Assembly (NCBI GenBank): GCA_036874045.1
Contig: CM072341.1
Coordinates: 4,538,501-4,602,500 of the forward strand
DNA from: Cymodocea nodosa
Taxonomy: Eukaryota; Streptophyta; Magnoliopsida; Alismatales; Cymodoceaceae
Direction of reading: 5' to 3'
DNA length: 64,000 nucleotides
Shown: positions 5,670 to 46,370 of the stretch, piece after piece
How positions within the stretch are numbered: the first letter of the stretch is position 1
Layout of the letters: each line of letters starts with the position of its first letter
Made by a program: the position numbers and the translations under genes
Notes under the pieces: generated by a model
What the model was told of the DNA's origin: nothing
The model's database searches: none
The model's input: only the letters and a program-made list of their open reading frames with translations

Positions 5670-5736
5670 AGAAAAAATTAGAGAAATTTTTGAAAAAGTG
5701 CAAGTTAACATTCCTTTGTTAGATCTACTGTAGAAA

Positions 5737-13643: not shown

Positions 13644-13861
13644 ATGGAATTGATGTAATTACCGCTGGATGTACTAAGGGAAGCACTGAGTAACTTGTCA
13701 GCTAAAGATCTGTGCATGTTGTGTTGTGTATCAAAGGAAATTAAAGACTGTGTTGGAGAAAAATATTTTCAAGGACTACAAGCTGCAAAAATGACTAAGA
13801 CTAGAGATGGATTCATATGGAAGTCATTTAATCATAGTTCAATTAGCCATGAATATTTGAA
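13644..13861 (+). pseudogene. F-box gene fragment, outer copy 1 (5' end only)
   Basis: The ATG follows TTATACAG (ends 13634), which looks like a splice acceptor. The frame carries the F-box helix pattern (ALSNLSAKDLCMLCCVSKEI), then LQAAKMTKTRDGFIWKSF, and stops matching the other two F-box copies at about 13861, where protease sequence begins abruptly. Between gag and this start (13458-13643) is a short spacer with one GTTGAGTTA/TAACTC dyad. Confidence 0.75.
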
Positions 13862-15890: not shown

Positions 15891-16449
15891 CAGAAAAATC
15901 TATATATTATATTGTGTAAAAATGTCAATTTCATCGAAGCATAGTATTGGTTCAACCGAAAGAAAAAAAAGAAAAAGTATTTAATTTCAATTCAACCGAG
16001 GAATATAACGGTTTGACTAAAATTTTAAAATGTTGAAAAATTAAGAGTCGGTTAGACCAAAAATTCTTTAGTCTTGACTGAAGTAAAAATTATTATTTTA
16101 AGTATTTTTATTAGTTATAATTTTACGGGAAGTTCGTTGAGTTATGCTTAACTCAACGAACTTACTCCGTTGAGTCTAGAATAAGTTGACAAATTTACCC
16201 CATTGAGTTGACTATAACTCAATAGAGTACTATAGTTAAGTCCACAGACTAGTTAATCGTAACTCCATGGAGAAGTAAGTGGGAGAGCGAGAGTTTGCAC
16301 GGGAAAATGACCCGATTACCTGCCTAAAACTTAAGGTTTATTTATACTAAAACTTAGGATTTGGGGGCATTATCCGTAGAATCATTTAGAACTTAGAATA
16401 GTAGAGATCAGAGCAATTCCATTCTGTTCTGTTACACCACAAAGTCAAG
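15891..16449 (+). other. Hairpin-rich spacer before ORF3, second block
   Basis: Same layout as 9384-9990: a CGGTT/AACCG dyad part (15930-16090) and then GTTGAGTTA/TAACTCAAC dyads (16130-16270). No gene. Confidence 0.7.
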
Positions 16450-18094: not shown

Positions 18095-19854
18095 TGAAAG
18101 GATCGAATGACACACTAGAGGGGGGGTGAATAGTGTCCTAATCAAGTTTATTTTGCTTTTAAAAATTTCGAAAGCTGTTGACACTAATGAACCTTGATTA
18201 ATTGATTTTAGAATTAAAAACTAGCAGAGCAGAAATTAAAGAACACAAAAAGATTTATAGTGGTTCCAAACTAGGTAGTCCACTCCTCAAGGCCACAACC
18301 TTGAGAATTCCACTAAGTGCTTTTAAGGCTAAGCACAAACCTTAAACAAGTTGCTTTTGCAGGCTAAGCAACAACCTTACACAAATTGCTTTTGCAGGCT
18401 AAGCAACAACATTATAGATGTTTTTAAAGGCTAAACAAAAACCTCACACAAAGCACCAACTTTGTGTACTCAAGACCCTAATCTTGAGTAAGTGAAGTAT
18501 CACACTTCACTCTCTTCACCAAGGCCTCGACCTTGTGAAGGTATACTCACAACACCCTTGTGAGTTAAGGTTTTCAAGTAAACAAGAAGACAATTTAAAA
18601 CCAGGAGTCACTAACTCAAAATGAAAATGACACACAACACTAGATCAACTCCTATGAAGAGTTGACACAGAAGCTTTGAGGAGATTTCTTGATTGATCTG
18701 TAGGTGATGATCTTTTGAACTTTGTTGCAGACGAATCTTCAAGGTGTTTGCAAAATCATTGAACAGACAATTTCTCCTCTCGAGTGTTGAAAAAATTCTA
18801 TGTATCTATCTTTCAGTTTTCTGCAAAAATCCTTTTTATTTTTCCTTCGAGATTTGCATAAGTGGAAAGAATTTTGAAATGGTCAGATGCCTTATGCAGC
18901 AATTCATTTTCGGCAACCTTCAATCATATTAAAGTTGAGATCTGCAATCAAAAGATATCTTACCACAAAGATTAGTCAATTAATAATAGTTGCAGTTTCT
19001 GTAAAAATAAAATCTTCGAAGGCTTTCAGAAAATCGGAGACTTAAATAGATAACCTGTTGAAACTCAAAATCATTTTGGATAGTTGGAACTAACTTACTG
19101 AAAGACCACTTAAGTCATGCATTAGAAATGAAACACGTGTCCTTCAAAAACTACGTTAAAAAAATAAACTATCGAATAGAGTGAACATGTTTCAGATACT
19201 TAAAAAGATAACTCTCCGATCCTTAAGTCATTTCAGATAGTTACATAGGTAACCTTCCGAAAAGTCACTTAAGTCAGAAAATAAAAGAAAACTCAACCAT
19301 CCAAAGCTTAAAACAGTTTTCGGATACTTATTGAAGATAACTCTCCGATTCTTAAGAGTTTTCGGATAGTTACATCGTAACCTTTCGAAAAGTCACTTAA
19401 GTCAAGTGATGAGAGACTAACACGTGTCCTTCAGAAGAAAGTAACCGAAAATATATTAAAACAAAGAAACAGCTAACTCTCCGAAATAAAAACTTTAACT
19501 ATCCGAAACCAAAAGGATTTCAGAGACTTACCATAAAAATCATATCCAGACATAAAAAGACTTAACTCATCGAAGATAAATACTTTTGGATAGTTACTGA
19601 TATAACTGTCTCAAAAACCAAGTGAAAGACTTAATTATCTGATTTGTCTTGTTCTGTTCGGTGACTTATAAAATAACTCTCCGATCAATACACTGTAGAC
19701 ATAATAACCTGCCGAAATCTAATTTAAAAGACTTTGAGTACACAATAGTTAGCCAAAATTCATTTGAGTAAAAGGACATCTAAACTATGGCAGAAATAAT
19801 TAAACCACACATTTTGCATCATCAAAATTAACTGATAAAATAAATGAACTAACA
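18095..19854 (-). mobile_element. Solo LTR, Ty1/copia SIRE-like
   Basis: Bounded by TG...CA ends (TGAAAGGATCG on the plus strand, AACTAACA at the right) and by a perfect GCAAG target repeat (18090-18094, 19855-19859) inside ORF3. AGAGGGGGGTGAAT near the left end is the mark of SIRE-like LTRs at their primer-site end, so the LTR points to the minus strand. No internal region or second LTR is present, so the rest was lost by LTR-LTR recombination. The right part is rich in TATCCGA/TCGGATA modules. Confidence 0.85.
18300..18460. repeat. Short tandem array inside the solo LTR
   Basis: About four units of roughly 35 bases built on TTGCTTTTGCAGGCTAAGCA. The unit is itself an inverted repeat (TTGCTT...AAGCAA). 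The two middle units are nearly identical; the outer two are degenerate. Confidence 0.7.
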
Positions 19855-20436
19855 GCAAGTTGATGTATAGATAACACCAGAGCTTCTTCACAACATTTTT
19901 AGATTGAAAAATGAAGGGATAGAAATTCTAGAGAACACAACTACAGTCGAGTGGACAGAATAGGAAATAAAGGACTATTTAGCTATCAATCCTAGTGTGC
20001 CATTATTAAATAGATTGAAGCACTTAAATGGTAAAGCACACATGGTAGCTAACATTTTGATTAAAAATGTCTACCAACGACAAGGCCACAATATTGAACT
20101 AAGTCAGTTTGTTAAATGGGCCACATATGCAATTGTGAACAGAATTTAAATTAATTGGTACAAAGTTTTTATCTCCAAGTTGAGAGCAGCAAAGAAGAAA
20201 TTATTTTATGAAGATTTGATTCCATTGCTAATGGTGGACAACATCAATTTCACGAAATGGACATCTAAAATGATAAGATCAAGAAGCATTTTAGTGAAAG
20301 AATACAGAAATTATGCTGGTGCTGAGATTATTGGACCTTCTAGAGGCATTATAAGGGCTGTTAAGAGGTAAATCAATTAGAACAACAACTAGAAAAGCTC
20401 TAGAAGGAAGTAGATGAACTTAGGAAAAAGGACTAA
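19855..20436 (+). pseudogene. ORF3, second block, part after the solo LTR
   Basis: Resumes with the second copy of GCAAG and carries the conserved helical domain (LNGKAHMVANILIKNVYQRQ, KKLFYEDLIPLLMV) and the start of the terminal coiled coil. Fossil, several breaks. Confidence 0.75.
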
Positions 20437-21496
20437 ATGTATTGTTCGTCTACTTATATTTGTATTGAAAAATATTTGACTATATGTAAATGTAAACTAT
20501 TTATATATATGAATGTTTGAATTTCAAATATTTTTGAAGTCATGTTTAAGAATGAATGATATAATTCAGAACTGTATTGAATATTATACAACTATTTTAA
20601 AGATGTGCAAGACTGTTTAAAAGATTTACAAATTTTATGAATGACATGGTTAAATGCATGATAATTGGTTAATGCCTAAATATATCTCTACATGTTGAAA
20701 AGTAAAATGTAAATTTTGCATAACAAGAAGTGAACTATAAGTTAAATATGCATATAATGTTCAGATTTAAATGAGTTACATTAGAACATTACATTAATGA
20801 CATGTACTTAACTTTAATTAAGTCGACAAAATGCAGAGAAAAAAAAAATATATATATATAGAAGTTAATACAAGGAGAAAGTTTTAGAAAAATTTGCCAA
20901 GTGTTAACTCAACAAAGTAAGTCCGTTGAGTTAACCTTAACTCCACGAGGTCAATAAGAAAATATAAGGTCACTCCGTTGAGTTATCTGTAACTCAACAA
21001 AGTTAGTCCGTGGAGTTAGTAAATAGGCAACGAACCTAGTCCGTTGAGTTAGTTGTAACTCAACGAGGTTAGTTCGTTGAGTTAGAAATAGTAACTGAAG
21101 CTAGTCCATTGAGTTAAATGTAACTCAACAAGGTTAGTTTGTGGATTAAGCTGAACGGTTATTCTTTTAACCACGAACGAAACTTCGTGGGTTTAACGGT
21201 TACTGAAATTTGAAATTAGAAGTGGAACACGTATCCATAAAAATAGGAACCATACTACACGTTACAAGACACGTTCTTGCAACGAGATTCATTTTCTTTA
21301 TGGATGTGCATTATAAATATAGAATAGAATGTTATTTATGAGCTACCAGCACTTGAGGAAGAAAAGAAAATTCGTTAGGGAACTAGAAGGAGAAGTAGCT
21401 GATTCAACTTCATCCGTCAACAACTATTTATTGAAAACAAAGCATCAGACTAGTATGTAATTAATCTTCTGCTATTTTACTTTATGTAAAGAGTTT
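20437..21496 (+). other. Spacer between ORF3 and gag, second block
   Basis: Counterpart of 11145-12113. The cluster of GTTGAGTTA/TAACTCAAC dyads at 20905-21160 is larger than in copy 1 (about five pairs). A TATA-like TTATAAATATAG lies at 21311-21322. The gag that should follow is separated by the inserted minus-strand element. Confidence 0.6.
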
Positions 21497-21501
21497 ATGA
21501 G

Positions 21502-23538
21502 TGTTTGTGTTTTCCCAATACTACACTAGAAAAACTTGGATTTGTTACTTCTATTTTTACTTAGTTAATTTATCTTTATGCCTATTCTTTCTTTTAGAAG
21601 TAAACAAACAACCTTTAATACAATTTAGATATTAATTCTAATTTATACTTTAACTGCAAGTGCATAGTGTCTATTGTATCAGTGTGCAAGTACAGGTCGA
21701 TCCCATAGGGAATTGCTGAAGAACTTGAGAACTGTTCGTTTGTTAATAATCAAATTTATATATTCAATAAGCTCTCCGTTGAATTACAGTTAACTCAATG
21801 GACAAAGTTCGTTGAGTTATGGCTAACTCAACGGACTAACCTCGTGGACTTAATTTAACTCCACGAGCCTGCCTTTTCTTTTTAATACTGCTATTTACAG
21901 AGGAATTTGGCCAACCATTGGGCGATTCCACAGATTGTAAATAACATCAATTAAGCTCTTTAATGTTAGTTAACATTGGATTTATCATTAAGCAATACTA
22001 ACATTCAAATAATTCAAACAGTAACCATTAAAATCTTTAAGTCTTTTGAATGAACCAATTTCAGTAAACTGTAAAACTAAAACAACATAAAACAATCACA
22101 ACACTAACAAAGATAACATTAATCACGATACAACACAAACAATACAACACTCAAATACAATATACAAACATAGATAAATTGTTTTTGGTATTTTTGTTTT
22201 TAATATGAACATGGAAATGGGCGAAAGGTGAAATGTAAAGTAATCTCACTTGACAGTAAATACTTCCGACACTACTTGCAACGCGATTACATCACTGAAA
22301 ATTAAACCACTTACAATTCTGTCTCCTCTCCCTATAGAATCGCGAGTCCAGAATTGCAGGATGATCTCCTCTTCAACATACAGGCATCAACTCGAAGCCA
22401 AGGCTAAAAGCTTTATGATCTCCTGAAATATGAGTCGGCTCTTGGTGAAAATGGCTTCCCGCGATGCGATCACTCCTCACAGTGGTTGTCAAGCATTGTG
22501 TTTGGCTCGAAATCGACCCGACATCAAGAAAGTATTCTCATAGACCTCCGATGGTTGGTGATTGTGGTGGTGGTGATGATGGTTGGTGTGGTACTTCAGA
22601 GAATTGCGACGCTGATCCTCCTTTGCACACATTGTTCGCCCATCGATCACACACCCTTTATTTTTTCTTCTTTTCTTTTATATTTCTTCAGTAGTAACTG
22701 CTTCTGCTTGAATGGTCGGTTGGATTTCCTTCATTCGTATCAACGGTGATGATTTCTTTCCCTGCGCGATACGTGCAAACGTGATTTTTCTCTTCTAACT
22801 GTCTGTTCCTACAACCGCTACAGTGGCATATTAGAAAATATATAGTCCGTGGAGTTACAGATAACTCAACGGACTTTCTTCGTTGATTTAACTATAAAAC
22901 ACGTGCATAGATTTAACTATCCGATGCTCAGGTGCATTTTGGATACTTATAAACTTAACTATCCGATGCTTAGATGCATTTCGGATAGTTATAGATAACT
23001 CATCGATATATAACTTAAGTAAATCTACCAAATCTCGACACGTGTCAGCAACAGTTTAATCATAAAATAACATTTCGGAGAGTTATGGAGCTAACTATCC
23101 GATGCTCAGATGCATTTCGGATAGTTATAGATAACTCACCGAAAGTTCACTTAAGTCATGCATTATGGTTTCGACACGTGTACTTCAGGAAATAATAAAA
23201 TATTCTCTCAAAACATAACTATTCGGCAATTTAAACATAACTATCTGATATGTTTGGCCTGTTAAACATAACTATCCGAAATATGTCCAGTATGTTAAAC
23301 ATAACTGTCCGAAATATCAGAAAATTCGGATACTTAAGAATTTCACAGCCTGCAACTTACCGACAGTTTAGAAATGTACTAAATTAACATTAATTTCCCC
23401 AAATTAAGCAGATTCTTCAATTAAAGTATATAACAATGCAATTATAACATAATGGCTTAATTCTCATATGATAAGCTAAATATTATGCAATTAACCATCA
23501 TTTAACCGTTAATAATATGCACCTTTTCATTCTAAACA
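21502..23538 (-). repeat. Athila 3' LTR
   Basis: 2037 bases, against 2018 for the partner. It contains GTTGAGTTA/TAACTCAAC dyads near 21777-21845 and a run of TATCCGA/CGGATAGTTA modules at 22915-23330. Short frames inside (22464-22749) recur in the other LTR only because the LTRs are copies. Confidence 0.92.
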
Positions 23539-23551
23539 CTTCCCCCATACC
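23539..23551 (-). other. Polypurine tract
   Basis: On the minus strand GGTATGGGGGAAG directly precedes the LTR start TGTTTAGAATG. The outer element has the similar GTATGGGGAAAG at 57581-57592. Confidence 0.85.
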
Positions 23552-25290
23552 TAAATTTTGCTAGTCCCTTAGCAAACTAAGATCTAATTAATTGGTCTTT
23601 CTAAAAGTGCTAGAATTAATTCTTCCCCTTTGTTTTTCTTCTGTTTTGCATAAAAATATATTCTGTATGTTTCAGTAATGAACTTGCAAATATACTTAGA
23701 ATATATGCAAATTACAAACAAAGTATATCATCATCACATAAGTGTTAATTATATTATCGTTTGTTCTTCTTTTCATCATCTGTCATCCTGAATTTTCCAA
23801 TAAGATTTCTAGAAGAAATTTCAACAACATACGAATCAAAGTACAATCCAATTCAATCTGATTAAGACAAGTAGAATAAAGAATTGTATCTCCATTAAAC
23901 AACTTCAAAAGTCAATTCCAGATTCATATTTCAGCAATTCTAGATAACAGAAAATATACTCGATTCATAAGATATCTGTATTTCACAAAACACTTGTATC
24001 TTTTCAGAACAATATATGTTTTTTTTTTTGTACTTTAAAAGTTAATTTGACAAGCTTGAATCATACAAGAGCTTTCTAATGTACCCATGTAACAAGCTTT
24101 CAGTCAACAATCCCAGATTTGATCAGGATCTTAGATTGCCAGATTTCAAGAGTCCTTGTTCAAGTCAACAATCCTTACATACCTATCTGCTCAAGTACAA
24201 AAGGCTCGTTATCAAACAAGTTAATAAACTCTCAAAATTTTCCCCTTTTTTTTGTTTCCTTTTTTTTTTCAATCAAACTACAAACACAAAACAAATATTA
24301 ATCACATACTATATATGTATGTATTTCATTCATACAGATGTAGTAAAACACCAATCTCATATAGTCCTGCTTCTATCATTTACTGAAAATATGAATCCAT
24401 AACAATAAGCTCATACTTTTTCTGTAGTTTAATAAAATCTACACATAAATCATTCTACAAGTTCAATCAGTCAAATTAAATGTATCTTTAATCATATGTG
24501 TTTCATTTAATCTAGAATTCACATCTCAACTCTTTCAGGACTTCAGATAATTTACTGATTTTTCATTAAGCATTCTGATTTCATTTTAAAATCGTGAAAC
24601 TGTTAAACTCATGAAATTCAGAAAAAAAAACATAAGATACCATATCTAGATTTGCATAAATAGTAAATTTTATAGCATCTTATATAACCTTCTAAATATA
24701 ACATTCAAGCAGTTTATAAAAATTTTACAGTCTCAATTATTGGATAGTTACAACAAGTTCATAAAAATTTTCAATTTCCTCAAAACTTTGCAGTACCATT
24801 TTAATTTCTTTAATTAACAAATTTACATGGTTGTTACTTCAATTACCTCCCCCCCATACCTACATTTTGCATTGCCCTTAATGTAAAAGATTTGACAATA
24901 AGTACAGTAATTGAAGCAGGCATGGCTATAGGTTTGTTGATTTAAATTCAGGATGAGTAATTAGTTACATACCTTGTTTCATTTGTATCTCCTTCTGCAT
25001 ATTCTGATTTTTGATTCTGAAAAACTTTTCATTCACAGATAAACGTAGAATATATAACAAAATAACATTTAACAAATATTAATAAATCAGTGTCTTGTGT
25101 GGAACCCATGCTCTTATGCCTTTGGTGGCTCACAAGCAAGTCAGTTGGTTTCCCAGAACAGATACCAACAAACTAGATTGATATTTTGATTTTTTTTTTT
25201 TATAAAATAAAAATGAAAACTAATTTTTTTTTTTTTTTTTCTAAAAATAAATGCAGAATACACACAACATTAAACACACAAAATCACAGC
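23552..25290 (-). other. Long 3' noncoding region, partly shared with SIRE-like elements
   Basis: No gene supported. About 23600-24700 matches the noncoding region between pol and ORF3 of the SIRE-like element at 57644-64000 (there about 62540-63560), in the same orientation relative to each element. The best part is 24034-24240 against 62896-63100. The rest (24700-25290) is AT-rich, with homopolymer runs near 25190 and 25225. Confidence 0.65.
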
Positions 25291-26433
25291 TTAAGAACAT
25301 GATTGAAAAGTGGAAACAAATGGAATAAACGTGTCAACCCAAGCAAACTTTTTAGGCATAGTTCTTCTTGCTATTAATTCTATTTTAATGTAGTTCTTGT
25401 TCCTTCTTAATTTGTAAACATGTAATATATTATAAATTCCAAATACAAGTGTATTACCATTAATGATATGAAATGTAGAAAGGGATCCTTTTCGGTTCCA
25501 AGGTAATGTAGCAGTTTCTATTTCTACATCTATTTCAATATATTCCTCTTCCCACTTCCATTTATTTATGTCTTTCATAATCCATATTTGAAATTTCATC
25601 AATTCATCCCACCATCTTATCAGACATAACGTAGGATCATCATATTCATTATACCACATTCCCATTTGAATTTTATCAAATTCTGCAGATGGTGGTTTAG
25701 CTATTTCTCTCGGTATAGGTAAAATTTCTATATATTCATCATAACAGTCTATGCTCACTATGTATAAGTCAGATCCAAATGCTATTGATATATCTGTGAC
25801 TATATATATATATATCCATCAAGTATGACATGCATATTGTTAATTAATGATTTTTGTCCTAGATATATCATAATATTTTCATTCCAAGATCTATTCAGAA
25901 AATTATACACACTTAAAGCGTAAATCTTCACCCCAATTTCTTGTAGGTCTCCAATAATATAATTTTTAAGGAATTGCAGAATTTTTATTAGAAAATATTA
26001 AAGTCGATCCACAATTTACAGTTGGTACTTCAAATCTATTAGGTTTTCCTATATTCCATTCTTCTCCTGTTATAGGATTTCTTATCAAAATATCAGGTAA
26101 TAATAAACTTGCATACCTTGGTATCGTCTTGTATATGATTAATCCTTCATCTATCCCCATAATATGATTTATTCCTTCTAATGCATTGGGTGGAATTCCA
26201 GTAGTTTCTTCCATAGCCAGATATTCATGGTTAATTGAACTATGATTAAATGACCTCCATATGAATCCATCTCTAATCTTAGTTATTTTTGCAGCTTGTA
26301 GTCCTTGAAAATATTTTTCTTCAATACAGTCTTTAATTTCCTTTGATACACAACACAACCTGTACAAATCTTTAGCTGACAAGTTACTTAGTACTTCCCT
26401 TAGTGCATCCAATGGTAATTGCATCAATTCCAT
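25291..26433 (-). pseudogene. Captured F-box gene inside Athila
   Basis: The N-terminal F-box reads LPLDALREVLSNLSAKDLYR then LCCVSKEIKDC, matching the LPxDxLxxILxxLxxxDLxRxxxVSK plan. F-box proteins bind SKP1 and give SCF ubiquitin ligases their target choice. The remainder resembles plant F-box-associated domains: RNPITGEEWNIGKPNRFEVP in the middle, then MWYNEYDDPTLCLIRWWDEL and FQIWIMKDINKWKWEEEYIE near the end. At about 380 codons it has the usual size of such host proteins. ATG at 26433 follows TTATACAG, an acceptor-like signal, by nine bases. Part of a fossil element, with about one or two breaks, clearly fewer than pol. It is most likely a host gene taken up by the element; the donor is not visible here. 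Confidence 0.8.
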
Positions 26434-26622
26434 TTGTCGATTCTGTATAACACAAACAAAAATTTAGCAGAGACAAAAATTAACATAACTACTGCACACC
26501 CTCGTGGAGTTAAGGCATAACTCAATGGACTAAGTTCGTTGAGTTAAAAACTAACTCTACGATACTATTAACTAAAAATAGAAACAAATATACATATAGA
26601 TAGTTACTTCAATTATACTACT
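26434..26622 (-). other. Spacer between gag and F-box
   Basis: Pyrimidine-rich run before TTATACAG and one GTTGAGTTA/TAACTC dyad (26505-26555). It looks like an intron 3' end. Confidence 0.5.
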
Positions 26623-27966
26623 TCATTCAGCTACCCTCCCAGAAGAGGTATCAATTTCATTAACAGATCTATTGACAGGGTTAGGTATTGCTTGTATTGG
26701 CAATCCTCCAGTAGGTCTAACTTCCATTGGTTCCTTCTGTCTAAGTGGTATATTTCTATTCTGATTTTCAATTGTAGCATTTCCAAATACAAAATCTAGA
26801 CGATTGTTTAATTGTTGGATTATCTTTTCTAATTTCTCTATTCTAGATATTTGTTCAATTAATGCTTCATAACTTATGTTCTTCTCATTTATATTTTCTC
26901 CTCCTTAGAAATTGTTGTTTCTCCAAGATAAATTTGGGTGATTTCTCCAATTAGGATGATAAGAATTTCCCAAGTTATCTCTCTGGTTTCTAGCATAAAT
27001 AATATCTAAGTCATTTATGTTTGCATTCTTTTCTGCTAGCTTTTGTTTTAATGATAACTCTTCTATTTTCTTTATTAATTCATTTAATTTCACCTCAAGC
27101 ATAGTATTTGAATCTATTTCATGCATTCCTCTTAGCAATATTTTTTTATCTGCAATAGCTTCAACCGAGTTTTCCCACTGTGTAGTTCTTTTTGCAAAGT
27201 TTTCTAAATATGCCCATGCTTCTTCACTACATAACTTTAAAAATCCATTTTGACAAGTAGATTTTAATAAAGATTTTGTTGAAACATCTATGCCTTCATA
27301 AATTATACCTATTAATTGTGATTTACTCATTGCATGATGCGGACATTAAGTCAATAAATCTTTAAATTTTTCAAAATATTTCCAAAATGATTTACCCTGT
27401 TTTTGGCTACACATTAATATTTCTTTCTTCTTTTTAATTGTTTGATGTGTTGGATAATATTTTTCCATAAAAATAGAGTAAAATTCAGTCCATGTAGAAA
27501 TTGAATTAGGCAATAGAGTATATAACCATCTCTTAGCTGTGTCTTTTAAAGAAAAAGGGATATATCTAAGTTTAATAGCATCTATACTCATGTTTGGCAT
27601 TTTCATCATTTGACAAACTTCGTTAAATTCTCTAAGGAAATAATAGGCATCTTCTCTTTCTAATCCATGAAAATGTGGCAATTGACTAATATAATTAGAT
27701 TTCAGTTCAAACCTATCTCCCTCAAAGTTTGGCAATCGAATACATGAAGGTTCATTAACTAATTCAGGATACAGAATCTCTCCTAATGGTTTTTCTACTG
27801 GAGTAGCCATCTCTACATTCTCTTTTAAAGAAAGGTTAGCTACACCCCAAAGAATTTCGTTAAAGTTCAGTTCAGAAAATTTTTCAGTACTCCTTTGCAC
27901 TAAAAATTCCTAGGTAGGTGTTCTTACTAATCGTTTAGTGCTAGGAGAACGAGTCCATGTGCTCAT
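26623..27966 (-). pseudogene. gag: Athila gag, downstream of ORF3
   Basis: Capsid-like gag domain with LPNFEGDRFELKSNYISQLP, EREDAYYFLREFNEVCQMMK and KRWLYTLLPNSISTW, then a helical middle (EEAWAYLENFAKRT, LEVKLNELIKKIEELSL) and the linker NSYHPNWRNHPNLSWRNNNF. Most of the protein is open in two long stretches (27346-27900 and 26905-27330). A full Athila gag normally opens the element; here it is the second-last gene. Its start codon context is the same ATGAGC at which this very element inserted into the outer copy. Fossil, a few breaks. Confidence 0.87.
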
Positions 27967-28831
27967 AATTAAATAGCAGAAGATTAATTACATACTAGTC
28001 TGAAGCTTTCTATTCAATAAATATTTGTTGTCGGATGAAGTTGAATCAGCTGCTTCTCCTTCTAGTTCCTCCAACGCATTCTCCTTTCTTTAAAAAGTGC
28101 TGGTAACTCGTAAATAACATTCTGTTTTATATATATACTGCACATTCATAAAGTGAATAAATCTCGTTGCAAGAACGTGTCTTGCAACGTGCATCGTGGT
28201 TCCTGTTTTTATGGGTTTGTGTACCACTACTAATTTCAAATTTTGGTAACCGCTAAACCGATGAAGTTTCGCTCGTGGTTAAAAGAATAACCATTCTGCT
28301 TAATCCACGAACTAACCTCGTTGAGTTACAGATAACTCAACGGAACACAGTTGGTTACTGTTGCTAACTCCACGGACTAACTTCGTTGAGTTAACACTTG
28401 GCAACCTCTAAGTTTTACTCTCGTAAGTTCCTCTCTATGTTTTTTTTCTTTGTCATTCTACTAACTGAAATAAAGTTAAATCTATGTCATTAATGCATCA
28501 TTCTGATTAAAATTCATTTAAATCTGAACATTATATAAAGATTTAACTTGCAAGTCATTTTATGTTATGCATAATTTATATTTTACCTTGCAACATGCAA
28601 AAATTTTTAAGCATTTATCCTGTCATTCAGCAAATTGTAAATATGTTAAAGATTCTTTCATAATATTCCACAAAATATATATAACAGTCAACACATTCCA
28701 TTCATTTTCACATCTAAAACACGTATGGAAATTGCATCTGAAAAATTTACATTCATTAATATGAATCAATTACATTACAAGTACATCATACAATTTCATA
28801 CAATTTTACACAAGTAGACGAACAATACAAT
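27967..28831 (-). other. Spacer between ORF3 and gag with TATA-like box
   Basis: In element order: noncoding AT-rich part, a GTTGAGTTA/TAACTCAAC dyad cluster at 28310-28400, a TATA-like box at 28127-28140, and GTATGT at about 27990-27995, a donor-like site after a Glu-rich stretch. No gene. Confidence 0.6.
28127..28140 (-). promoter_or_regulatory. TATA-like box ahead of the displaced gag
   Basis: Minus strand TATATATATAAAAC, about 165 bases before the gag ATG at 27966, the same distance as in outer copy 1. Position and sequence conservation is the only evidence. Confidence 0.4.
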
Positions 28832-31065
28832 TTAATCTCTATGCCTAAGTTCATCTACTTCCTTCTGGAGTTTTTCTAATTGAAGCTCTAATTGATTAAT
28901 CCTTTCTACTGCTCTTGTAATTCCTCCAGAAGGTACAGCTAGTTCTGTAGCTACAAAATTTCTATATTCTTTCACTGAAATGGTTCTAGATCTGATCCTT
29001 TTTGATGCCCATTTCGTGAAATCAATATAGTCCACCATCAGTAGTGGAATCAAATCTCCATAAAATAATTTCTTCTTAACTATTTTCAGCTCGGAGATAA
29101 AAATTGCAAACCAATTTATTTGGATCTTATTTTCAACTACATATGTGGCCCATTTAACAAATTGACTTAATTCTATGTCATGGCCCTATCGTTGATAGAC
29201 ATTCTTAATTAGAATATTAGCTACCATGTGTGCTTTACCATTTAAATGCTTCAATCTGTTTAATAATGACACTATGATTGATAGCTAAACAATCCTTAAT
29301 TTCCTGTTCAGTCCACTCAACTACAGTTGTATCTTCCAAAATTTTTATTCCTTCATTCTTTAAACCAAAAATGTTGTGGAGAAGCTCTAGTGTTATCTGT
29401 ACATCAGCTTCCTCCACATTTGAAATTAATCCTCCTTCTCCTTCTCTTAAATTTGCATAAAAACAGGGCACTAAATTCTCATATACTGCATGCCCTCTTT
29501 CTTGAGAAATGAATTGCAGTAGACCTTGGAATTCAAATAAATCTTTGATTTCTTACATTCCATCCCAATTTACTGGTCTATTGTAAATAATGTCGTAACC
29601 CCTTATTTCTTGGTATTTAGTATAAACTTCCTGACTATAAAAATGTACTTCATTCAAAATTATTGTTTCAGTCGGGTCAGGAAGGTGACTTTGTTGTTCC
29701 AAAGGGGTTTGCTCTTGCTCTTCCTCTTCTATAGGCTGCATTTGAACATTTTCTACAGATTCTTGAATTTCTGTTTTTGTTTGTGGTGGTGAGCTAGCAG
29801 AACTCTCCACTCTGTCTTGAATTCTCTCCATAAATTGCTGAAGAGTTTCTTGCTCTTCAGTGGAATCTGTGAAATTATTTTTGTCCAAATGGTTTCTTTC
29901 AACCTCTTCATTTTCTACTCTTTCTTTTTCCTCCTGACTACCAATCTGTTCTGTTACTGTTCTTTCTGATTCTGTAACAGATTGGGATGGAGTCACAGGC
30001 AATTCAGTTTCTGCCCTAATTTCTGTTCTTCCTTCTTGTATAAATTGCAGACTAATTTCAACCTAATTTTCTTCTTTTCTTTGCTCCTACTGCTGCAGCT
30101 CCTCCTGCTCCTCCTCAGAATCGGATAATAGGTTAATAAAAATTTGCTCTACAGGCCTTGTAAAAATTGGTACTTCAGATTTAATTTCTTCATTTTTAGG
30201 CACTTTTTCTTTTCCTTTCTTTTTTCTGATTAGTTGTGCCTGTTCTTCCTCTTCATCTTTTGAAATTAAATCTACAAAAGTAGGCTCTACAGGCCTTCGA
30301 GCCATAGGTACTGGCTCTTCCTATTTAACTCTTTTTATAACTACTAGTCTCGAAGGACTAGCCTCTCCTACAGCACTTGATTTAGTTGTTGCCTGATACT
30401 GTTCAACTTTTATTTTCTATTAGGCCCTTATCCTTTCTTCGACCCTTTTTTTCTTAATGGCATCATATAAAATATGTGCCTTAGCCATAGCTATCTCTTG
30501 AGTATCACCTTGGTCTCTTGCTGTCTTGACCAAGCTAGTAAATTCTTTCTCTTCTTTTTCAGTTCTTGGCCAAGCAAATGCAACTCGTGGCAATGGTTCT
30601 GTTGGCTGAACTAGAGGTCCTAACTGCTGTTCCTTAGGAATAGGTCTTTCAGTAGTTGGTTCCTCCTGTTCTTTAGTTGCCTCTTCTTCGTTTTCTTTCC
30701 TTTCTTACTCCTAGATCGCCCATCTAGCTCGTCTACAGATTCGTCTTTTGAACCAGAGCTGGGACTTACATTGGATTAATTCTAGGGCTACTTCATTGTT
30801 TGGCCGTATCTTTCTTTCTTTACTTACTGCAATTTCAGTTGCCACTCTAATTCGTGTCTCCATTATCTGTGGTATTTGTATTTCTAACTCAACCAAAACT
30901 TTCCTCAAGTTAAAGAGTTCTGATTCTACCTTTTGTAGCTCTTTCTCTCTTGTTGTGTTATGGATCTTTTTCCACGTGTGCCATTCTTCAGATTCCTTCA
31001 GAAACTATGCAGTGTCCACTACCTCTTCCTAGAATTCAGGCAACATCTTCCTCATCGTGGAGTTA
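28832..31065 (-). pseudogene. ORF3 (envelope position)
   Basis: Most complete Athila ORF3 in the window. N-terminal third: charged helices (30711-31065). Middle: acidic and Gln-rich, with repeated PVEPTFVDLIS / PVEQIFINLLS blocks (30090-30305), then a Thr/Glu/Gln-rich stretch (29553-30002). C-terminal third: helical domain with YANLREGEGG, FGLKNEG (about 29349-29369), IQINWF (about 29105-29125), KKLFYGDLIPLL and a coiled coil ending at 28832. No membrane segment is apparent, so a structural or nucleic-acid-handling role is as likely as an envelope. Fossil, several breaks. Confidence 0.75.
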
Positions 31066-31659
31066 CACAATAGCATGGAATCGCTTTGATTTCTATTGTT
31101 CTAGATTCTAAATGATTTGATGGATAATGCCCCCAAAACCCTAGGTTTTATTTTAAATAAGCCCTAAGTTTAGGCAGGTAATCGGGTCATTTCCCGATCC
31201 AACTATTACTATTTTATTCACAGTCTTAGCTATAGTACTCCGTTGAGTTACATTTAACTCAATGGAATAAGCTCGTTGACTAACTCAAGACTCAACAGAG
31301 TAAGCTCATTAAGTTAAGCATAACTCAACGGACTCCCTGTACAAACAGATATAAAAATAAAAATACTATAGATAATAGTTTTTCTATTTTACTATTGGTT
31401 TAACCGATACTATGTTTCTATCGTACCTAAATTTTTTTTTTTTTTTTTTTTTTTCGGTTTAACCGATATTATGTTTCAGTAAAACCAACATTTTTTCTAA
31501 AAATTAATATACATATTTTTTTATGTTCTGGTCATACCGATGGATCTAGTCGGTTGAACCGCAACGATTTTTATATTATATATATATGTATATATATATA
31601 TATAATTTTTTTTTTAATGTGTGTTTTTTTTTTTTTATAAACATAAAATTGATTTCTTA
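31066..31659 (-). other. Hairpin-rich spacer between integrase and ORF3
   Basis: GTTGAGTTA/TAACTCAAC dyads at 31235-31335, CGGTT/AACCG dyads at 31385-31560, a long T-run near 31430-31455 and a TA microsatellite near 31574-31600. No gene. Confidence 0.7.
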
Positions 31660-32990
31660 CTAAGTAAAGCTCGAGTAGTCCTCTACTCTGACTTCTTCTA
31701 TAATTCCAAAGGAGCTTTTTGATGTTTTCAGAATAGGTTTCAGTCTTTGTCCATTTACTTTAAATATATTCTGATTTTTAGGATTTTCAATTTCAATAGC
31801 TCCATAAGGATAAATATTTCGAACTATGTAAGGTCCTGCCCATCTAGATTTTAATTTTCCCAGATGGTTATGGAGTTTAGCCATATAAAGATATACTTCT
31901 TGTCCTATTTCAAAACTTTTTGGAATAATTTTTCTATCATGCCAAAATTTAATTTTTTCTTTTTCTCTTACAGTCTTCGAATAAGCTTCATTTCTAAATT
32001 CTTCTAATTCAATTAATTGCATTTTTTTATTTTTAGCACCTTGATTTAAATTAGTATTTAGAGTTTTTAATGCCCAATAAGCTTTATGTTCTATTTCAAC
32101 AGGTAAATGACAACTTTTTCCATATACTAGCCTAAAAGGTGACATACCTAAGCTCGTTTTATAAGCAGTTCTATAAGCCCAAAGTGCATCTATCAATCTA
32201 TTAGCCCAATTTGTTCTAGTAGGATTTACTACTTTTTCTAAGATTAACTTAATTTGTTTGTTTGCACTTTCTACTTGTCTACTTGTTTGCGGATGATATG
32301 ATGTTGCAATTTTGTGGTTCACTCCATATTTCTTCATTAAGGCTTCAAAACTTCTATTACAGAAATGAGTTCCTCTATCACTAATAATAGCTTTAGATAT
32401 TCCAAATCTGGCAAATATATTTGTTCTTATAAATTGTATTACCACTTTGTTGTCATTAGTTTTTGTAGGAATAGCTTCTATCCATTTAGATACATAATCC
32501 ACCCCCAACAATATGTAATTAAATTGATTAGACATAGGAAATGGACCCATAAAATCTATTCCCCACACATCAAAGATTTCAACCTCAACAATAGGATTAA
32601 GAGACATCATATTTCTCTTTGATATTCTTCGTATTTGTTGACATCTTAAACAACTTAAGCAATATTTATGAGCATCTTTGAATAGTGTTAGCCAATAAAA
32701 CCCACATTGCAGAATTTTTGCAGTAGTTTTCCCAGAACCAAAATGCCCTCCACAAGCTTGGTCATGACAGAAAGACAATATGCTCAGATATTCAGTTTCT
32801 AGAACACACCTCCTTAAAACCAGATCAAGACATTTCTTAAATAAGAATGGGTCTTCCCAATAGTAATATTTTACTCTTGAGAAAAACAATTTCTTATCCT
32901 ATCTATTCCAATCCTTAGGTGTTAGACTAGTAACTAAATAATTAACTATGTCTGCATACCAAGGTATTGTGTTGATGGTCATTAATTGTT
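31660..32990 (-). pseudogene. pol: Athila integrase
   Basis: The longest open Athila stretch in the window: 409 codons from 32889 to 31660. It has an HHCC zinc finger (H42, H49, C80, C83 counted from that start) and a DDE core with D112 (WGIDFMGPF), D171 (ISDRGTHF) and E207 (QVESANKQ), giving the normal 35-residue spacing between the second Asp and the Glu. The C-terminal part has the [19 protein letters not shown] fold typical of Ty3 integrases and lacks a chromodomain, as in Athila. Its openness fits the low LTR divergence. Confidence 0.92.
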
Positions 32991-32999
32991 CATCAGGAA

Positions 33000-33440
33000 A
33001 ATTATCCTTAATTTCAATATTTGATTTTTCTATTTGTAATCTTGATAAATGATCTGCTACTACATTCTCACAACTTTTTTTATCTTTAATTTCTAGATCA
33101 AATTCTTGCAATAATAATATCCATTAGATCAATCTAGGTTTAGTTTCTTTTTTCTTTATTAGATGTTTTAGAGCTGAATGATCCGTGTATACTATTACTT
33201 TAGCTCCAATCAGATATGATCTAAGCTTTTCTAAAGCGAACACAACAGCTAATAATTCTTTTTCAGTAGTTGTGTAATTAACTTGAGCATCATTTAAGGT
33301 TTTTCTTGCATAATGAATCACTCTAGGAGATTTTTCTATCTTCTGTCCCAACACTGCTCCTACAGCAAAATCAGAAGCATCGCACATTAATTCAAATGGA
33401 TAGTTCCAATCAGGTGCTTGAATTATAGGAGTTGAAATTA
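33000..33440 (-). pseudogene. pol: Athila RNase H
   Basis: [20 protein letters not shown], then [33 protein letters not shown] and [12 protein letters not shown], the standard order for the Ty3 RNase H domain that removes the RNA strand of the hybrid during reverse transcription. Fossil. Confidence 0.9.
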
Positions 33441-33499
33441 AGCTAGTCTTAAGTCTGAAAAATGCTTCCTTACAATTTTTATCATAGTTAAATGGAACA

Positions 33500-34460
33500 T
33501 CTTTTAATAGATTAGTTAAAGGTCTAGCTATCTTGCTAAAGTCTTTAATAAATCTTCTATAAAAACTAGCATGTCCTAGAAATGATCTAATATCTTTTAC
33601 CGATTTAGGTTCTGGTAGATTAGAAATTACTTCTATTTTAGCTTTATCTACTTCCAACCCTTTCTTAGAAACAACATGCCCTAAGACTATTCCTTGTTTA
33701 ACCATGAAGTGACATTTTTCCCAATTTAAAACCAGATTTTTTTCCACACAGCGTTTTAATATTAAGTCTAAATTTTTTAAACAGACTTCATATGAGTTGC
33801 CAAATACAATAAAATCATCTATAAATATTTCTAAAAAATCTTCAGTCATTCTAGTAAATATGCCCTACATACACCTTTGAAAAGTAGCTAGCGCATTGCA
33901 TAATCCGAATGGCATTCTCTTAAAAACATAAGTTCCATTAGGACAGGTGAAAGTTGTTTTCTCTTGATCCTCTAATGCTACTGGAATTTGATTATACCTT
34001 GAATACCCATTTAGGAAACAAAAATATTCTTGCCCTGCTAATCTTTCCAGCATTTGATTTATAAAATGTAAGGGAAAATGATCTTTCCTAGTCACAACAT
34101 TTAGCTTTCTATAGTCTGTACATACTCTCCAGCCTGATTGAATTCTAGTAGGTATCAAGTCTTGATTTTCATTCCTAATAACTGTTAATCCTGATTTCTT
34201 GGGAACTACATGGATTGGACTAACTCACGAGCTATTAGAAATCGGATAAATTGTGTCATTATCTAACCATTTAACTATTTCCTTACTGACTACTTCTTTA
34301 AGGTTTGGATTTAATCTCCTCTTAGGAATTCTAACAGGTTTAGCATTCTCTTCTAAATATATGTGGTGACGGCATAAAGTTGAACTTAACCCTTTTATAT
34401 CAGTCATAGTCCATCCTATTGCTTCTTTATAACTTTTTACTACATCTTTTAATTTAGCTC
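33500..34460 (-). pseudogene. pol: Athila reverse transcriptase
   Basis: Opens with the WTMTDIKGLSSTLCRHHIYL-type lead-in, then YRKLNVVTRKDHFPL, the MPFGLCNALATFQRCM block, the catalytic region [12 protein letters not shown] and the thumb-like [17 protein letters not shown]. Motif order and wording are Athila-like. Fossil, some of the pol breaks lie here. Confidence 0.92.
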
Positions 34461-34629
34461 TTTGATCCTCTTTTAAATCTGAAGCAATAATGATTGGACA
34501 GGTTTGTTTATCTTCTAGAAATATATAGGTTAATTCAGGAGGTAAAGGTTTTAATTCTAAATGTTTCCCATTAGAAGCTAGAGCTCCTAATTGAACATCA
34601 TCATCTTTTAAATGAATTTCTTCCATATC

Positions 34630-35331
34630 TCATTCTATATTTATGCTTTCACTTTCTTTTAAAAATTCAGAGTTGATTTGCCAATTTAATTCTTCTTGAA
34701 TCACATCATCTAACATATCTCTTTCATCCTCTAAAAAGTTTATGGTATGTAAGGACATTTCTAACTCTTCAAACCTTTCTGATTTGAAAATATTTAATTG
34801 AGTATCCTCATTACCATATGCTAATTTCATTACTCCAGTTTTACAATTTATAACAACCTTTGATGTTGCTAAAAATGGCCTTCCCAAAATTAAAGATGTA
34901 TCACTATTTTTATGCTTAATTTGTTGGGAATCTAGAATTACAATATCAATAGGATATATAAAATTTTTAATTTTAATTAAGAAATCCTCTATTTTTCCTT
35001 TTGGGTATCTTATACTTCTATCAGCTAATTGAATAATCGTACTAGTAGGAGTTAAGCCTTCTAATCCTAAGGATGCAAATATATCACTTGACATAACATT
35101 TATACCTGCACCTAAGTCTATTAAGGTTTTTTATAGAATGATATTTCCTATGGTGTATGATATAATAGGGATTCCAAGATCAGATAACTTTTTAGAAATT
35201 TGTGGCAGAAATAAGAAACTACTTTGCTCAGCTAAAAAGACCTTTCTAAGAACTTTTTGCTCTCTTTTCTTAGTACACCAATCCTTCAAAAATTTAGCAC
35301 AAGGTGGCATTTTCTGCAATAGATCTAACAA
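34630..35331 (-). pseudogene. pol: Athila protease and linker
   Basis: A leader, MPPCAKFLKDWCTKK, then the aspartic protease region, ending at LILGRPFLATS, and an acidic linker to RT (FEELEMSLHTINFLEDERD). The protease would cut the gag-pol products. Fossil. Confidence 0.8.
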
Positions 35332-35376
35332 AGGAATGTTAACTTGTACTTTTTCAAAAATTTCTCTGATTTTTTC

Positions 35377-36324
35377 TTATTTTTTAGGTATTGTTTGTTG
35401 TAATCTTTCAGGATAGGGTGCTAAAGATTTTGATTTCAAAGATTCTTTTTCTTTTAGTTGATTTGTTTGATCATTTTTAGCTTCATTAGCAAATTCAGAT
35501 TGTTCTTCAGTGATTTCTAGATTTTCAGCTATTACATTTTCATTATCATTTTGATTCTTATCCACCTTCATATTATTTTCATTTTGAGTTATTGGTGGTA
35601 TATCAGTTCCAGATCTTAATGTTACACATATATCTTCCAGATTTTCGTTACTCTCATGATGCTTTTGTATATCATTTTCGTAATTATGATCTTAAATTGT
35701 TTTTAGTTTTAAAGTGCATTCTTTAAATTCTCTTGCATTAATATTCTCTGTTTGCTGTATATTTTGCAAATTATGTAGGTTTATAACATTATAATTTTCA
35801 TTGTCCTGTTGCATAACTTGTATTTTCATTGTATATTCGTCTAATGCTTTTAATTTTCTTTCCAGATCATCCAATTTCATTACATTCAATTTTTGATCAA
35901 TTTTCATTATGGTTTTTTCAGTTTCGTAAATTATATTCTTTTTAGGTTCTGAATATGCTTCTTTATAATTTAATTGGTTGACTTCTTGTTGTTGACACAT
36001 AAAGTATTCCAATTTGTCTAGATTTTGCTCTATACTACGCTCCAGTCTGTCATACCTATCTCAAACTTCAATGTCTCTCAACATATTACACATTCTATAC
36101 TGACCATCAGTTGGGTAAACTATAGGATTCTCATACTCGACTCTATTATATTGAGGATAATTCATTTGTTGTTCATGGGATCTAACCATTTGTAAACGTC
36201 TCAGTTTCAAATAGTCAGAAATGTCATGTCCTTCAGAATTGTAGAATTCACATATGCTAATTACAAGTTTCAGAAATCTTTGAGCATAAGCATATGCCAT
36301 ATTCTTAATTATAGAAGAAAACAC
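35377..36324 (-). pseudogene. Zinc-knuckle and linker segment ahead of pol
   Basis: First gene segment after the primer site. The near-start pattern CEFYNSEGHDISDY resembles a CCHC knuckle; a Tyr/Asn-rich part, a coiled coil (about 35700-36010) and an Asn/Glu/Lys-rich linker follow. It corresponds to the tail of gag in ordinary Athila elements, while the capsid domain is found at 26623-27966. Fossil, several breaks. Confidence 0.65.
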
Positions 36325-36374
36325 ACAACACTCTGGCTATTAAAACGAAACAGCTCTAAAAGTTGCTTATATTA

Positions 36375-36421
36375 ATTCAATTCTATTCAATTCAGTTCAA
36401 TTTAATTCAATTCAATTCAAT
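36375..36421. repeat. ATTCA/TTCAA pentamer microsatellite next to the primer site
   Basis: About nine imperfect TTCAA-type units between the primer site and the first gene. The outer element lacks it, so it grew in this copy or its close parents. Confidence 0.8.
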
Positions 36422-36439
36422 TCCCTGGCAACGACGCCA
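36422..36439 (-). other. Primer-binding site, tRNA-Asp type
   Basis: Minus strand TGGCGTCGTTGCCAGGGA, two differences from the usual Athila site. It lies seven bases from the LTR end. Confidence 0.88.
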
Positions 36440-36446
36440 TAAAACT

Positions 36447-38464
36447 TGTTTGTGTTTTCCCAGCACTACACCAGAAAAACTTGGATTTGTTACTTCTATT
36501 TTTACTTAGTTAATTTAACTTTATGCCTATTCTTTCTTTTAGAAGTAAACAAACAACCTTTAATACAATTTAGATATTAATTCCAATTTATACTTTAACT
36601 GCAAGTGCACAGTATCTATTGTATTGTGTGCAAGTACAGGTCGATCCCATAGGGAATTGCTGAAGAACTTGAGAATTGTTCGTTTGTTAATAATCAAATT
36701 TATATATTCAATAAGCTCTCCGTTGAATTACAGTTAACTCAACGGATAAAGTTCGTTGAGTTATGGCTAACTCAACGGACTAACCTTGTGGACTTAATTT
36801 AACTCCACGAGTCTGCCTTTTCTTTTTAATACTGCTATTTACAAAGGAATATGGCCAACCATTGGGCGATTCGACAGATTGTAAATAATATCAATTAAAC
36901 TCTTTAATGTTAGTTAACATTGGATTTATCATTAAGCAATACTAACATTCAGATAATTCAAACAGTAACCATTAAAATCTTTAAGTCTTTTGAACGAACC
37001 AATTTCAGTAAACTGTAAAACTAAAACAACATAAAACAATCACAACACTAACAAAGATAACATTAATCACGATACAACACAAATAATACAACACTCAAAT
37101 ACAACATGCAAACATAGATAAATTGTTTTTGGTATTTTTGTTTTAATATGAACATGGAAATGGGCGAAAGGTGAAATGTAAAGTAATCTCACTTGACAGT
37201 AAATACTTCCGACACTACTTGCAACGCGATTACACCACTGAAAATTAAACCACTTACAATTCTGTCTCCTCTCCTTATAGAATCGCGAGTCCAGAATTGC
37301 AGGATGATCTCCTCTTCAGCATACAGGCATCAACCCGAAGCCAAGGCTAAAAGCTTTACGATCTCATAAAATATGAGTCGGTGCTTGGTGAAAATGGCTT
37401 CTCTTCCCGTGACGCGATCACTCCTCATAGTGGTTGTCAGGCACTGTGTTTGGTTCGGAATCGACCCGACATCAAGAAAGTATTCTCACAGACCTCCGAT
37501 GGTTGGTGATTATGGTGGTGGTGATGATGGTTGGTGTGGTACTTTAGAGAAGTACGACACTGATCCTCCTCTGCACACACTGTCCACCCATCGATCACAC
37601 ACCCTTTCTTTTTTCTTCTTTTCTTTTATATTTCTTCAGTAGTAACTACTTCTACTTGAATGGTCAGTTGGATTTCCTTCATTCATATCAACGACGATGA
37701 TTTCTTTCCCTACGCGATACGTGCAAACGTGGTTTTTCTCTTCCAACTGTCTGTTCCTACAACCGCTATAGTGGCATATTAGAAAATATATAGTCCATGG
37801 AGTTACAGATAACTCAATGGACTTTCTTCGTTGATTTAACTATAAAACACGTGCATAAATTTAACTATCCGAAATGCATCTGCTTAGATGCATTTCGCAG
37901 ATGCATTTTGGATAGTTATAGATAACTCACCGATATATAATTTAAGTAAATCTACCAGATCTCGACACGTGTCAACAGCAGTTTAATCATAAAATAACAT
38001 TTCGGAGAGTTACGTAGCTAACTATCCATGCTCAGATGCATTTCGGAAAGTTATAGATAACTCACCGAAAGTTCACTTAAGTCATGCATTATGGTTTCGA
38101 CATGTGTACTTTTGGAAATAATAAAATATTCTCTCAAAACATAACTGTTCGGCAATTTAAACATAACTATCCGATATGTTCGGTCTGTTAAACATAACTA
38201 TCTGAAATATGTCCGGTATGTTAAACATAACTGTCTGAAATATCAGAAAATTCGGATACTTAAGAATTTCATAGCCTCCAACTTACCGATAGTTCAGAAA
38301 TGTACTAAATTAACATTAATTCCACCAAATTAAGTAGATTCTTTAGTTAAAGCATATAATAGTGCAATTATAACATAATGACTTAATTCTCATATGATAA
38401 GCTAAATATTATGTAATTAACCATCATTTAACCATTAATAATATGCACTTTTTCATTCTAAACA
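36447..38464 (-). repeat. Athila 5' LTR
   Basis: 2018 bases, ends TGTTT...AAACA. Carries the dyads at 36720-36785 and 37795-37825, and TATCCGA modules at 37860-38260. Near 37875-37905 it has a small fold-back of the ATGCATCTGC kind that the 3' LTR lacks, one of the few structural differences between the pair. Confidence 0.92.
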
Positions 38465-38643
38465 ATGAGCACATGGATTCGTTCTCCTAGCACTAAACGA
38501 TTAGTAAGAACACCTACATAGGATTATTCAATACAGAGGTGTACTGAAATATTTACTGAATTAGACTTTAACGAAATCCTTAGGAGTGTAGCTAACCTTT
38601 TTTTAAAAGAAAATGAAGATATGGCTGCTCTAGTAGAAAAACC
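38465..38643 (+). pseudogene. gag: gag of outer element, second block, first part
   Basis: Begins at ATGAGC with the second copy of the target repeat and reads into the start of gag (STWIRSPSTKRLVRTPT, then LDFNEILRSVANLF). It is cut by the Ty1 insertion after AAACC. Confidence 0.85.
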
Positions 38644-40010: not shown

Positions 40011-40012
40011 AT

Positions 40013-40024: not shown

Positions 40025-40062
40025 AAGGTTGATCTCGTTTATAGATTTAACCATCTGAGATC

Positions 40063-46365: not shown

Positions 46366-46370
46366 AAACC

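Follow-up and report, generated by a model that had tools for sequence, protein, structure and literature searches.

A capsid-type gag behind ORF3, followed by an F-box gene, suggests a split gag in a putative Athila-type Ty3/gypsy family of Cymodocea nodosa

In long terminal repeat (LTR) elements, the position of gag ahead of Pol is regarded as a fixed rule, which surveys use as a sorting criterion; in one of them, 8453 Ty3/gypsy elements were classed by the order GAG-PROT-RT-RH-INT, and GAG was not reliably identified in 159 (PMC6317226). Diaspora is described in the accessible part of PMC1142308 as having a primer-binding site (PBS) for tRNA-Asp and gag and pol in one open reading frame (ORF) with gag first. 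Elements lacking GAG are known from Retand, where 7 of 63 clusters are without GAG and 2 more are without GAG and AP (PMC11963269), and genes acquired behind pol are known from the orchid 2-ODD/AlkB Ty3/gypsy elements, whose acquired ORF lies between pol and the 3' LTR according to the passages concerned (PMC9289625; review, PMC7264820). In Thlaspi arvense, an F-box 'LTR-gene', a single gene that was tandemly duplicated, is tied to an LTR element as far as the relevant part of PMC8764390 describes it; the capture of an F-box gene by an LTR element is thus no novelty by itself. Here we describe a 64,000-nt stretch of C. nodosa contig CM072341.1 (the window, whose coordinates are used throughout), in which an inner element, I (21502-38464, minus strand), and two further copies, O1 and O2, carry a capsid-type gag behind ORF3, followed by an F-box gene. 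All comparisons between copies rest on these three within the one window.

The order in I is LTR, PBS, a knuckle/linker-protease (PR)-reverse transcriptase (RT)-RNase H (RH)-integrase (INT) ORF, ORF3, capsid-type gag, F-box gene, polypurine tract (PPT) and LTR (Table 1). An LTR pair, PBS, PPT, target duplication and the PR-RT-RH-INT order of Ty3/gypsy elements are all present, whereas the usual GAG in front of PROT was not found, capsid being located only behind ORF3. A sequence-only reading of the window had reported matching LTRs, primer site, PPT and ATGAG on both sides, and self-alignment agreed with it (93.2% LTR identity, both LTRs bounded by TG...CA). Its placement of gag (26623-27966) as the second-last gene, after integrase and ORF3, was likewise borne out by a Retrotrans_gag match (PF03732, E = 7.7e-13) at 27349-27909, inside that range, and the last gene, which it had left unnamed, is an F-box/F-box-associated (FBA) gene. 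The PBS begins 7 bases past the 5' LTR, and we take it to be of the tRNA-Asp type, judging by eye and from the description of Diaspora. The LTR distance of 0.071 corresponds to an insertion age of about 2.7 million years if, as we assume, the substitution rate is 1.3e-8 per site and year.

The RT piece of I matched three contigs in bacterial assemblies (L001, L002 and L003, named Solirubrobacter, Geminicoccus and Labilibacter), which are evidently contamination by plant-type Ty3/gypsy elements, whereas viral contigs searched with gag, INT and RT pieces gave no relatives. L001 contains a single open frame of 2004 aa and L002 one of 1998 aa, and the Pfam order in L001 is gag, protease, RT, RNase H, integrase. 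Identity to the window was 39% for capsid (140 aa), 67% for RT (246 aa) and 59% for INT (406 aa) in L001, and 67% for RT (246 aa) in L002. L001 has a CX2CX4HX4C knuckle at residue 363, followed by a NPGWKNHPFLQW stretch. Judged from its sequence, the family in the window would be Athila-type Ty3/gypsy, the comparison having been made with the relatives L001-L003.

In order to locate capsid, all six frames of the window were searched by tblastn (E up to 0.01) with eight gag queries, i.e. the capsid piece of I, residues 1-440 of the L001 ORF and the proteins P0001-P0006. Matches fell at three places only: 27909-26842 (the inner gag), 12171-13175, and 38522-38644 together with 46360-47268. Capsid is thus placed behind ORF3 in 3/3 copies, and this search found none in the 5' slot of either copy that keeps a 5' end (2/2: I and O1), in line with the earlier claim that the place after the PBS holds a knuckle/linker segment only. 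The PBS and the knuckle-like motif are about 170 bp apart in I and 125 bp apart in O1, a distance too short for a capsid. This motif retains 3/4 (O1) or 2/4 (I) knuckle ligands at CX2CX4HX4C spacing, and is followed by a linker and an LRSG motif of its own (LRSR in O1) and then by protease. The 3' gag extends from a start Met through capsid (CA) and a WRNHPNxSW linker to an SGR motif, without the segment of about 29 residues that carries the zinc knuckle in the relatives L001, P0005 and P0006. It aligns to L001 on either side of the knuckle with a 29-residue gap, placed slightly differently in a second alignment; P0005 and P0006 have their knuckle at the position of this gap, and the segment is absent from the 3' gag in 3/3 copies. 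The tail of the 3' gag up to the SGR motif was matched in score against L001 by 12 of 1000 shuffles, the 5' piece against the same L001 stretch by 698 of 1000. An AlphaFold model of the capsid piece was too poor for use (mean pLDDT 54.7).

The same order had been read twice more in one outer element; the order is indeed present twice, but the outer element consists of two joined copies, O1 (4088-13864) and the 5'-truncated O2 (from 13841), which meet between the F-box of O1 and the PR of O2. The junction (13841-13864) carries a short shared sequence and is probably a deletion between the two copies. The ORF3-gag and gag-F-box junctions align in 3/3 copies, and the genes have diverged in step (I-O1 and I-O2 identity: gag 93.1 and 88.3; PR-RT 93.6 and 88.6; F-box 91.6, over 215 bp only, and 87.5), indicating that the layout is older than the divergence of these copies. 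These observations support the earlier statement that the order spread as a unit, and no gag-first member with the same LTRs was seen in the 2/3 copies keeping a 5' end.

Coding constraint was evaluated with 2000 shuffles, each of which redistributed the observed substitutions randomly over like bases. Synonymous changes in gag exceeded expectation for I-O1 (32 observed vs 23.0 expected, P 0.0135-0.02), I-O2 (52 vs 31.9) and O1-O2 (49 vs 26.8), the latter two with 0 of 2000 shuffles as high, and F-box I-O2 gave 53 vs 30.5 (0 of 2000; 55 vs 31.1 with O2 as reference). This excess is about the same size as that in pol (I-O1: 5' slot 37 vs 26.4, PR-RT-RH 46 vs 33.6, INT 32 vs 18.5; I-O2: PR-RT-RH 79 vs 53.2); ORF3b gave 73 vs 45.4 for I-O1 and 73 vs 54.5 for I-O2. 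The LTR control in three frames gave 39 vs 31.4, 36 vs 32.1 and 29 vs 30.4 (P 0.07, 0.22 and 0.66). In the two wrong frames of six pairs, the values were 30 vs 26.0 and 18 vs 24.5 (gag I-O1), 39 vs 38.7 and 26 vs 35.2 (gag I-O2), 34 vs 35.1 and 20 vs 31.4 (gag O1-O2), 59 vs 58.9 and 40 vs 53.3 (PR-RT I-O2), 19 vs 21.6 and 20 vs 19.4 (INT I-O1), and 46 vs 35.9 (P 0.0155) and 34 vs 33.1 (F-box I-O2). In-frame third positions gave 55 vs 40.4 (gag I-O2), 46 vs 31.1 (gag O1-O2) and 56 vs 42.2 (F-box), and stops were depleted in the F-box (2 observed vs 9.2 expected, P 0.0025). Nei-Gojobori ratios were less clear than the synonymous-change test (in frame vs out of frame: gag I-O2 0.33 vs 0.50 and 0.84; F-box I-O2 0.37 vs 0.43 and 0.65). 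Since divergence is in step and the in-frame synonymous excess resembles that of pol and is absent or weak in wrong frames, gag and F-box were apparently under purifying selection in their 3' position. The pattern of stops and synonymous changes may reflect selection up to the time of insertion, followed by decay.

Several observations weigh against this interpretation and the split-gag explanation given below. The F-box I-O2 pair shows the weaker excess in one wrong frame given above, the sole exception among the six pairs, and gag I-O1 taken alone is weak, with no excess at third positions (30 vs 28.2) and a Nei-Gojobori ratio that fails to distinguish the reading frame (0.46 vs 0.44 and 0.95 out of frame). 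For F-box I-O1 (70 codons) the ratio was 0.62 in frame vs 0.38 and 0.52 out of frame. Stops in gag were no less frequent than expected by chance (I-O1 6 vs 5.0, I-O2 9 vs 8.4, O1-O2 6 vs 6.4); they were not depleted in the 5' slot (5 vs 4.2) or INT (4 vs 4.2) either. All three copies are broken, and ORF3 of O2 is far more diverged than its neighbours, indicating that the copies are mosaics. The 5' knuckle resembles those of the relatives weakly: against L001 and P0005, 15 and 14 of 1000 shuffles were as good for O1, and 243 and 622 of 1000 for I. The splice acceptors ahead of ORF3 and gag are not shared by every copy and were rejected as proof of splicing, whereas the acceptor-like site TTATACAG before the F-box is identical in 3/3.

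The leaders of the 3' genes carry arrays of a 10-mer inverted repeat, TAACTCAACG/CGTTGAGTTA, which occurs 116 times in the window with up to 1 mismatch (1-6 times in each of ten first-order Markov sequences). Within I, clusters are found in the leader and U3 of the LTRs and in the intervals ahead of ORF3, gag and F-box, with two one-mismatch matches (30885 and 31056) inside ORF3; O1 and O2 have clusters ahead of the same genes. Single strands of the arrays fold into hairpins, as folded without shuffle control, and the arrays could be sites of strand transfer. Across the window the repeat forms 25 clusters or single hits, common to the LTRs of the Athila-type and copia-type families and to the ORF3, gag and F-box leaders; no match was found in L001-L003. 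The possibility that the gag leader is a displaced LTR was rejected, as only short stretches within and next to the arrays resemble the LTR.

Taken together, we think it rather probable, from sequence comparison, that this is a Ty3/gypsy family of Athila type whose gag became split through gain of a second gag and reciprocal loss, and in which the 3' gag and the F-box gene were under selection. The additional gag, derived from the family's own RNA or from a related element, would have been acquired behind ORF3, e.g. by strand transfer; capsid would then have been lost from the 5' copy and the knuckle from the 3' copy, leaving each to supply one half. Genomic RNA starting from the LTR may encode an NC (nucleocapsid)-PR-RT-RH-INT protein, and the 3' genes may be expressed from spliced or internally started mRNAs. 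Capsid made from a late mRNA could be in excess over Pol without frameshifting, its amount being set apart from that of Pol, and the NC and capsid halves would meet in the particle. The F-box protein may join the host SCF ubiquitin ligase via its F-box and present a target to it; plant viruses counter silencing by means of F-box proteins, as poleroviruses do with P0. A bolder version, which we regard as possible but doubtful, is that the gag-first rule was broken for good: capsid would have become an independent late gene behind the env-like ORF, with nucleocapsid fused to Pol, the leaders would be marked by the arrays, and the captured F-box would redirect SCF against a host factor that silences or blocks the element.

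The sequence-only reading held that gag had moved, with a circle or template-switch event as one possible cause. The gag order is real, and the 5' and 3' parts are complementary for CA and knuckle, as expected if the sole gag had been excised from its place between PBS and knuckle and, in a single step, inserted again behind ORF3. However, the stretch from the post-knuckle linker to the SGR/LRSG motif is present in both the 3' gag and the 5' slot; a second gag with reciprocal loss therefore fits better than cut-and-move, a preference that draws on short motifs, and we judge such a simple relocation quite improbable. The gag could also have arrived by an old nested insertion, in which an Athila-like fragment and a host F-box gene landed in the 3' region of an ancestor and were later carried along. 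The second PPT-like sequence (24846-24861, 1.3 kb upstream of the true PPT) and the upstream leader of gag, with its LTR-like inverted-repeat array, would suit this scenario, which is nevertheless unlikely in our estimate: the leaders resemble the family LTR in short stretches in and around the arrays only, and inspection by eye showed no PBS in the gag leader, although no search was made for LTRs of other families or for a target duplication around the block.

Whether the 3' genes have any role is a separate matter. A gag-less family could live on the capsid of other elements, with the 3' gag and F-box as recombination passengers; gag-less plant elements do exist (the 7 + 2 of 63 Retand clusters in the part of PMC11963269 cited above), all window copies are broken, and gag stops are not depleted. 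Against this stand the pol-like in-frame synonymous excess of gag and F-box, their in-step divergence and the depletion of F-box stops, and we give this explanation only a small chance, much like that of the nested insertion. Assembly error or segmental duplication, instead of a transposing unit, might be suspected in so dense a nest of repeats, yet the three copies have matching ORF3-gag and gag-F-box junctions, the gag of O1 and O2 differs from that of I by 7-12%, and the LTR pair has a 5-bp duplication; we consider it highly improbable.

Table 1. Coordinates of features in the window
Feature	Positions	Strand	Evidence
I, 5' LTR	36447..38464	-	self-alignment 93.2% to 21502-23538; TG...CA
I, 3' LTR	21502..23538	-	self-alignment; TG...CA
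I, target site duplication ATGAG, left copy	21497..21501	.	sequence
I, target site duplication ATGAG, right copy	38465..38469	.	sequence
I, inverted-repeat array (TAACTCAACG/CGTTGAGTTA) in LTR leader	36721..36809	-	
I, PBS, tRNA-Asp type (presumed)	36423..36439	-	read by eye in sequence
I, 5' ORF, knuckle/linker-PR-RT-RH-INT, one frame with stops, without capsid	31663..36300	-	
I, degraded zinc-knuckle-like motif	36211..36252	-	16 residues past first Met; weak statistics
I, protease	34633..35130	-	PF13650 2.2e-4, slightly under curated cut-off
I, RT and RNase H	33127..34224	-	PF00078 1.2e-11 and 1.6e-7; PF17917 7e-31
I, integrase	31663..32898	-	PF00665 1e-14; PF17921 1.4e-11
I, inverted-repeat array before ORF3	31241..31330	-	
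I, ORF3, env-like position, broken	28835..31059	-	start read by eye; PF20167 weakly, 0.013
I, inverted-repeat array before gag	28319..28393	-	
I, capsid-type gag without knuckle, behind ORF3	26623..27966	-	PF03732 7.7e-13
I, inverted-repeat array between gag and F-box	26503..26561	-	
I, F-box/FBA gene, last gene	25290..26433	-	PF00646 8.6e-10; TIGR01640 0.0004
I, second, internal PPT-like sequence	24846..24861	-	sequence
I, PPT GGTATGGGGGAAG	23539..23551	-	sequence; abuts 3' LTR
O1, end of 5' LTR, PBS at 4645	4088..4637	+	LTR end placed by eye
O1, knuckle/linker-pol	4739..9263	+	end approximate
O1, ORF3 region	9950..11144	+	start approximate
O1, gag behind ORF3	12114..13457	+	PF03732 1.3e-4 in 12684-13241, slightly under curated cut-off
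O1, F-box, cut at junction with O2	13644..13864	+	PF00646 2.1e-8
O2, pol fragment, 5'-truncated, starts inside protease region	13841..15889	+	89.2% to 34978-32932
O2, ORF3 region and gag leader, diverged	16085..21486	+	71-76% identity
O2, gag, first piece, between inner element and copia insertion	38465..38643	+	
O2, gag, second piece	46365..47538	+	
O2, F-box/FBA gene	47769..48815	+	PF00646 8.9e-11; TIGR01640 2.7e-8, under cut-off
O2, 3' region, PPT, first 51 bp of 3' LTR	56934..57643	+	between copia insertions

The coding strand of I contains 24 stop-to-stop pieces that are 60 aa or longer, 20/24 of which were scanned with Pfam. PF00646 matched in the piece 25969-26463 above its cut-off, which places the last gene among plant F-box/FBA genes, whereas TIGR01640 (NCBIfam, F-box-associated domain) in I and O2 and FBA_1 (0.0021) stayed under their curated cut-offs. 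No F-box homologue was found at 1e-3 among 1019 protein-database candidates, a database that seems poor in plant proteins, so this is no evidence of uniqueness; a PDB search with the inner F-box piece gave no match. PF03078, the Athila ORF-1 domain, was not found in five ORF3 pieces of I (E up to 0.1); this domain is not general in the Athila clade (16% of Athila elements in PMC6317226, where aRH is the mark of Tat). The Pfam hits of I include no second RNase H, although a diverged aRH could escape detection. An I-O1 alignment of ORF3a with 45% identity was dropped as misaligned.

O2 is interrupted several times. The insertion of I struck the start of its gag, at the start codon (38465-38469), and a copia element (38644-46364) splits the same gene; another copia insertion (49043-56933) separates the F-box of O2 from its 3' end, and its 3' LTR, beginning at 57593, is cut after 51 bp by a second copia-type LTR element. 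The copia-type elements at 49043-56933 and 57644-64000 each contain an ORF3-like ORF (PF20167 0.00093 and 0.013, below the cut-off) and a stretch 70-74% identical to the Athila-type 3' region in the same orientation; among ORFs of at least 150 aa, the former has this ORF and a copia gag only. Ty1 and Ty3 elements seem to have modules in common. A PIF/Harbinger-type transposase piece lies at 382-1766, where 1293-1766 matched DDE_Tnp_4 (2.2e-13) and 382-1029 matched nothing in Pfam; next to this piece is a 62-bp tandem array (2179-2410).

If the 3' capsid gene is indeed selected, the gag-first rule is breakable and the family offers a natural test of the control of the Gag:Pol ratio; some 'gag-less' elements may then carry gag elsewhere, and a retrotransposon keeping an F-box gene would point the way to a host factor whose degradation it needs. 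In the open literature, among the matches listed and with subscription papers and supplements outside its scope, neither an LTR element with gag behind pol/ORF3 nor an F-box gene in such a gag-last element was found.

Foamy viruses express Gag and Pol from separate mRNAs, as proposed for I, but their gag stays first. L001 and L002 also have gag first, in one ORF, with the knuckle of L001 inside gag, and they gave no F-box match and no inverted-repeat motif, in contigs that may not hold whole elements. Gag-less elements such as BARE-2 and some Retand resemble the window elements in having no capsid in the 5' slot; no report of gag elsewhere in them was found in the available part of PMC11963269, BARE-2 being represented there by a cited title. 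The Thlaspi arvense F-box 'LTR-gene' shares with I an F-box gene with an LTR element, gag displacement not being mentioned in the relevant part of PMC8764390. The orchid 2-ODD/AlkB elements, as described in the passages concerned, similarly keep an acquired gene behind pol within a family, but have gag first, and the term 'F-box' occurs 0 times in the main texts of PMC9289625 and PMC7264820. Athila, Calypso and Diaspora share with I the tRNA-Asp PBS, long LTRs, the PR-RT-RH-INT order and, except in Diaspora, an ORF behind pol. Diaspora additionally shares the CX2CX4HX4C knuckle type, according to the part of PMC1142308 describing it, but has gag first in its single gag-pol ORF; in the window elements capsid lies behind ORF3 and an F-box gene has been added.

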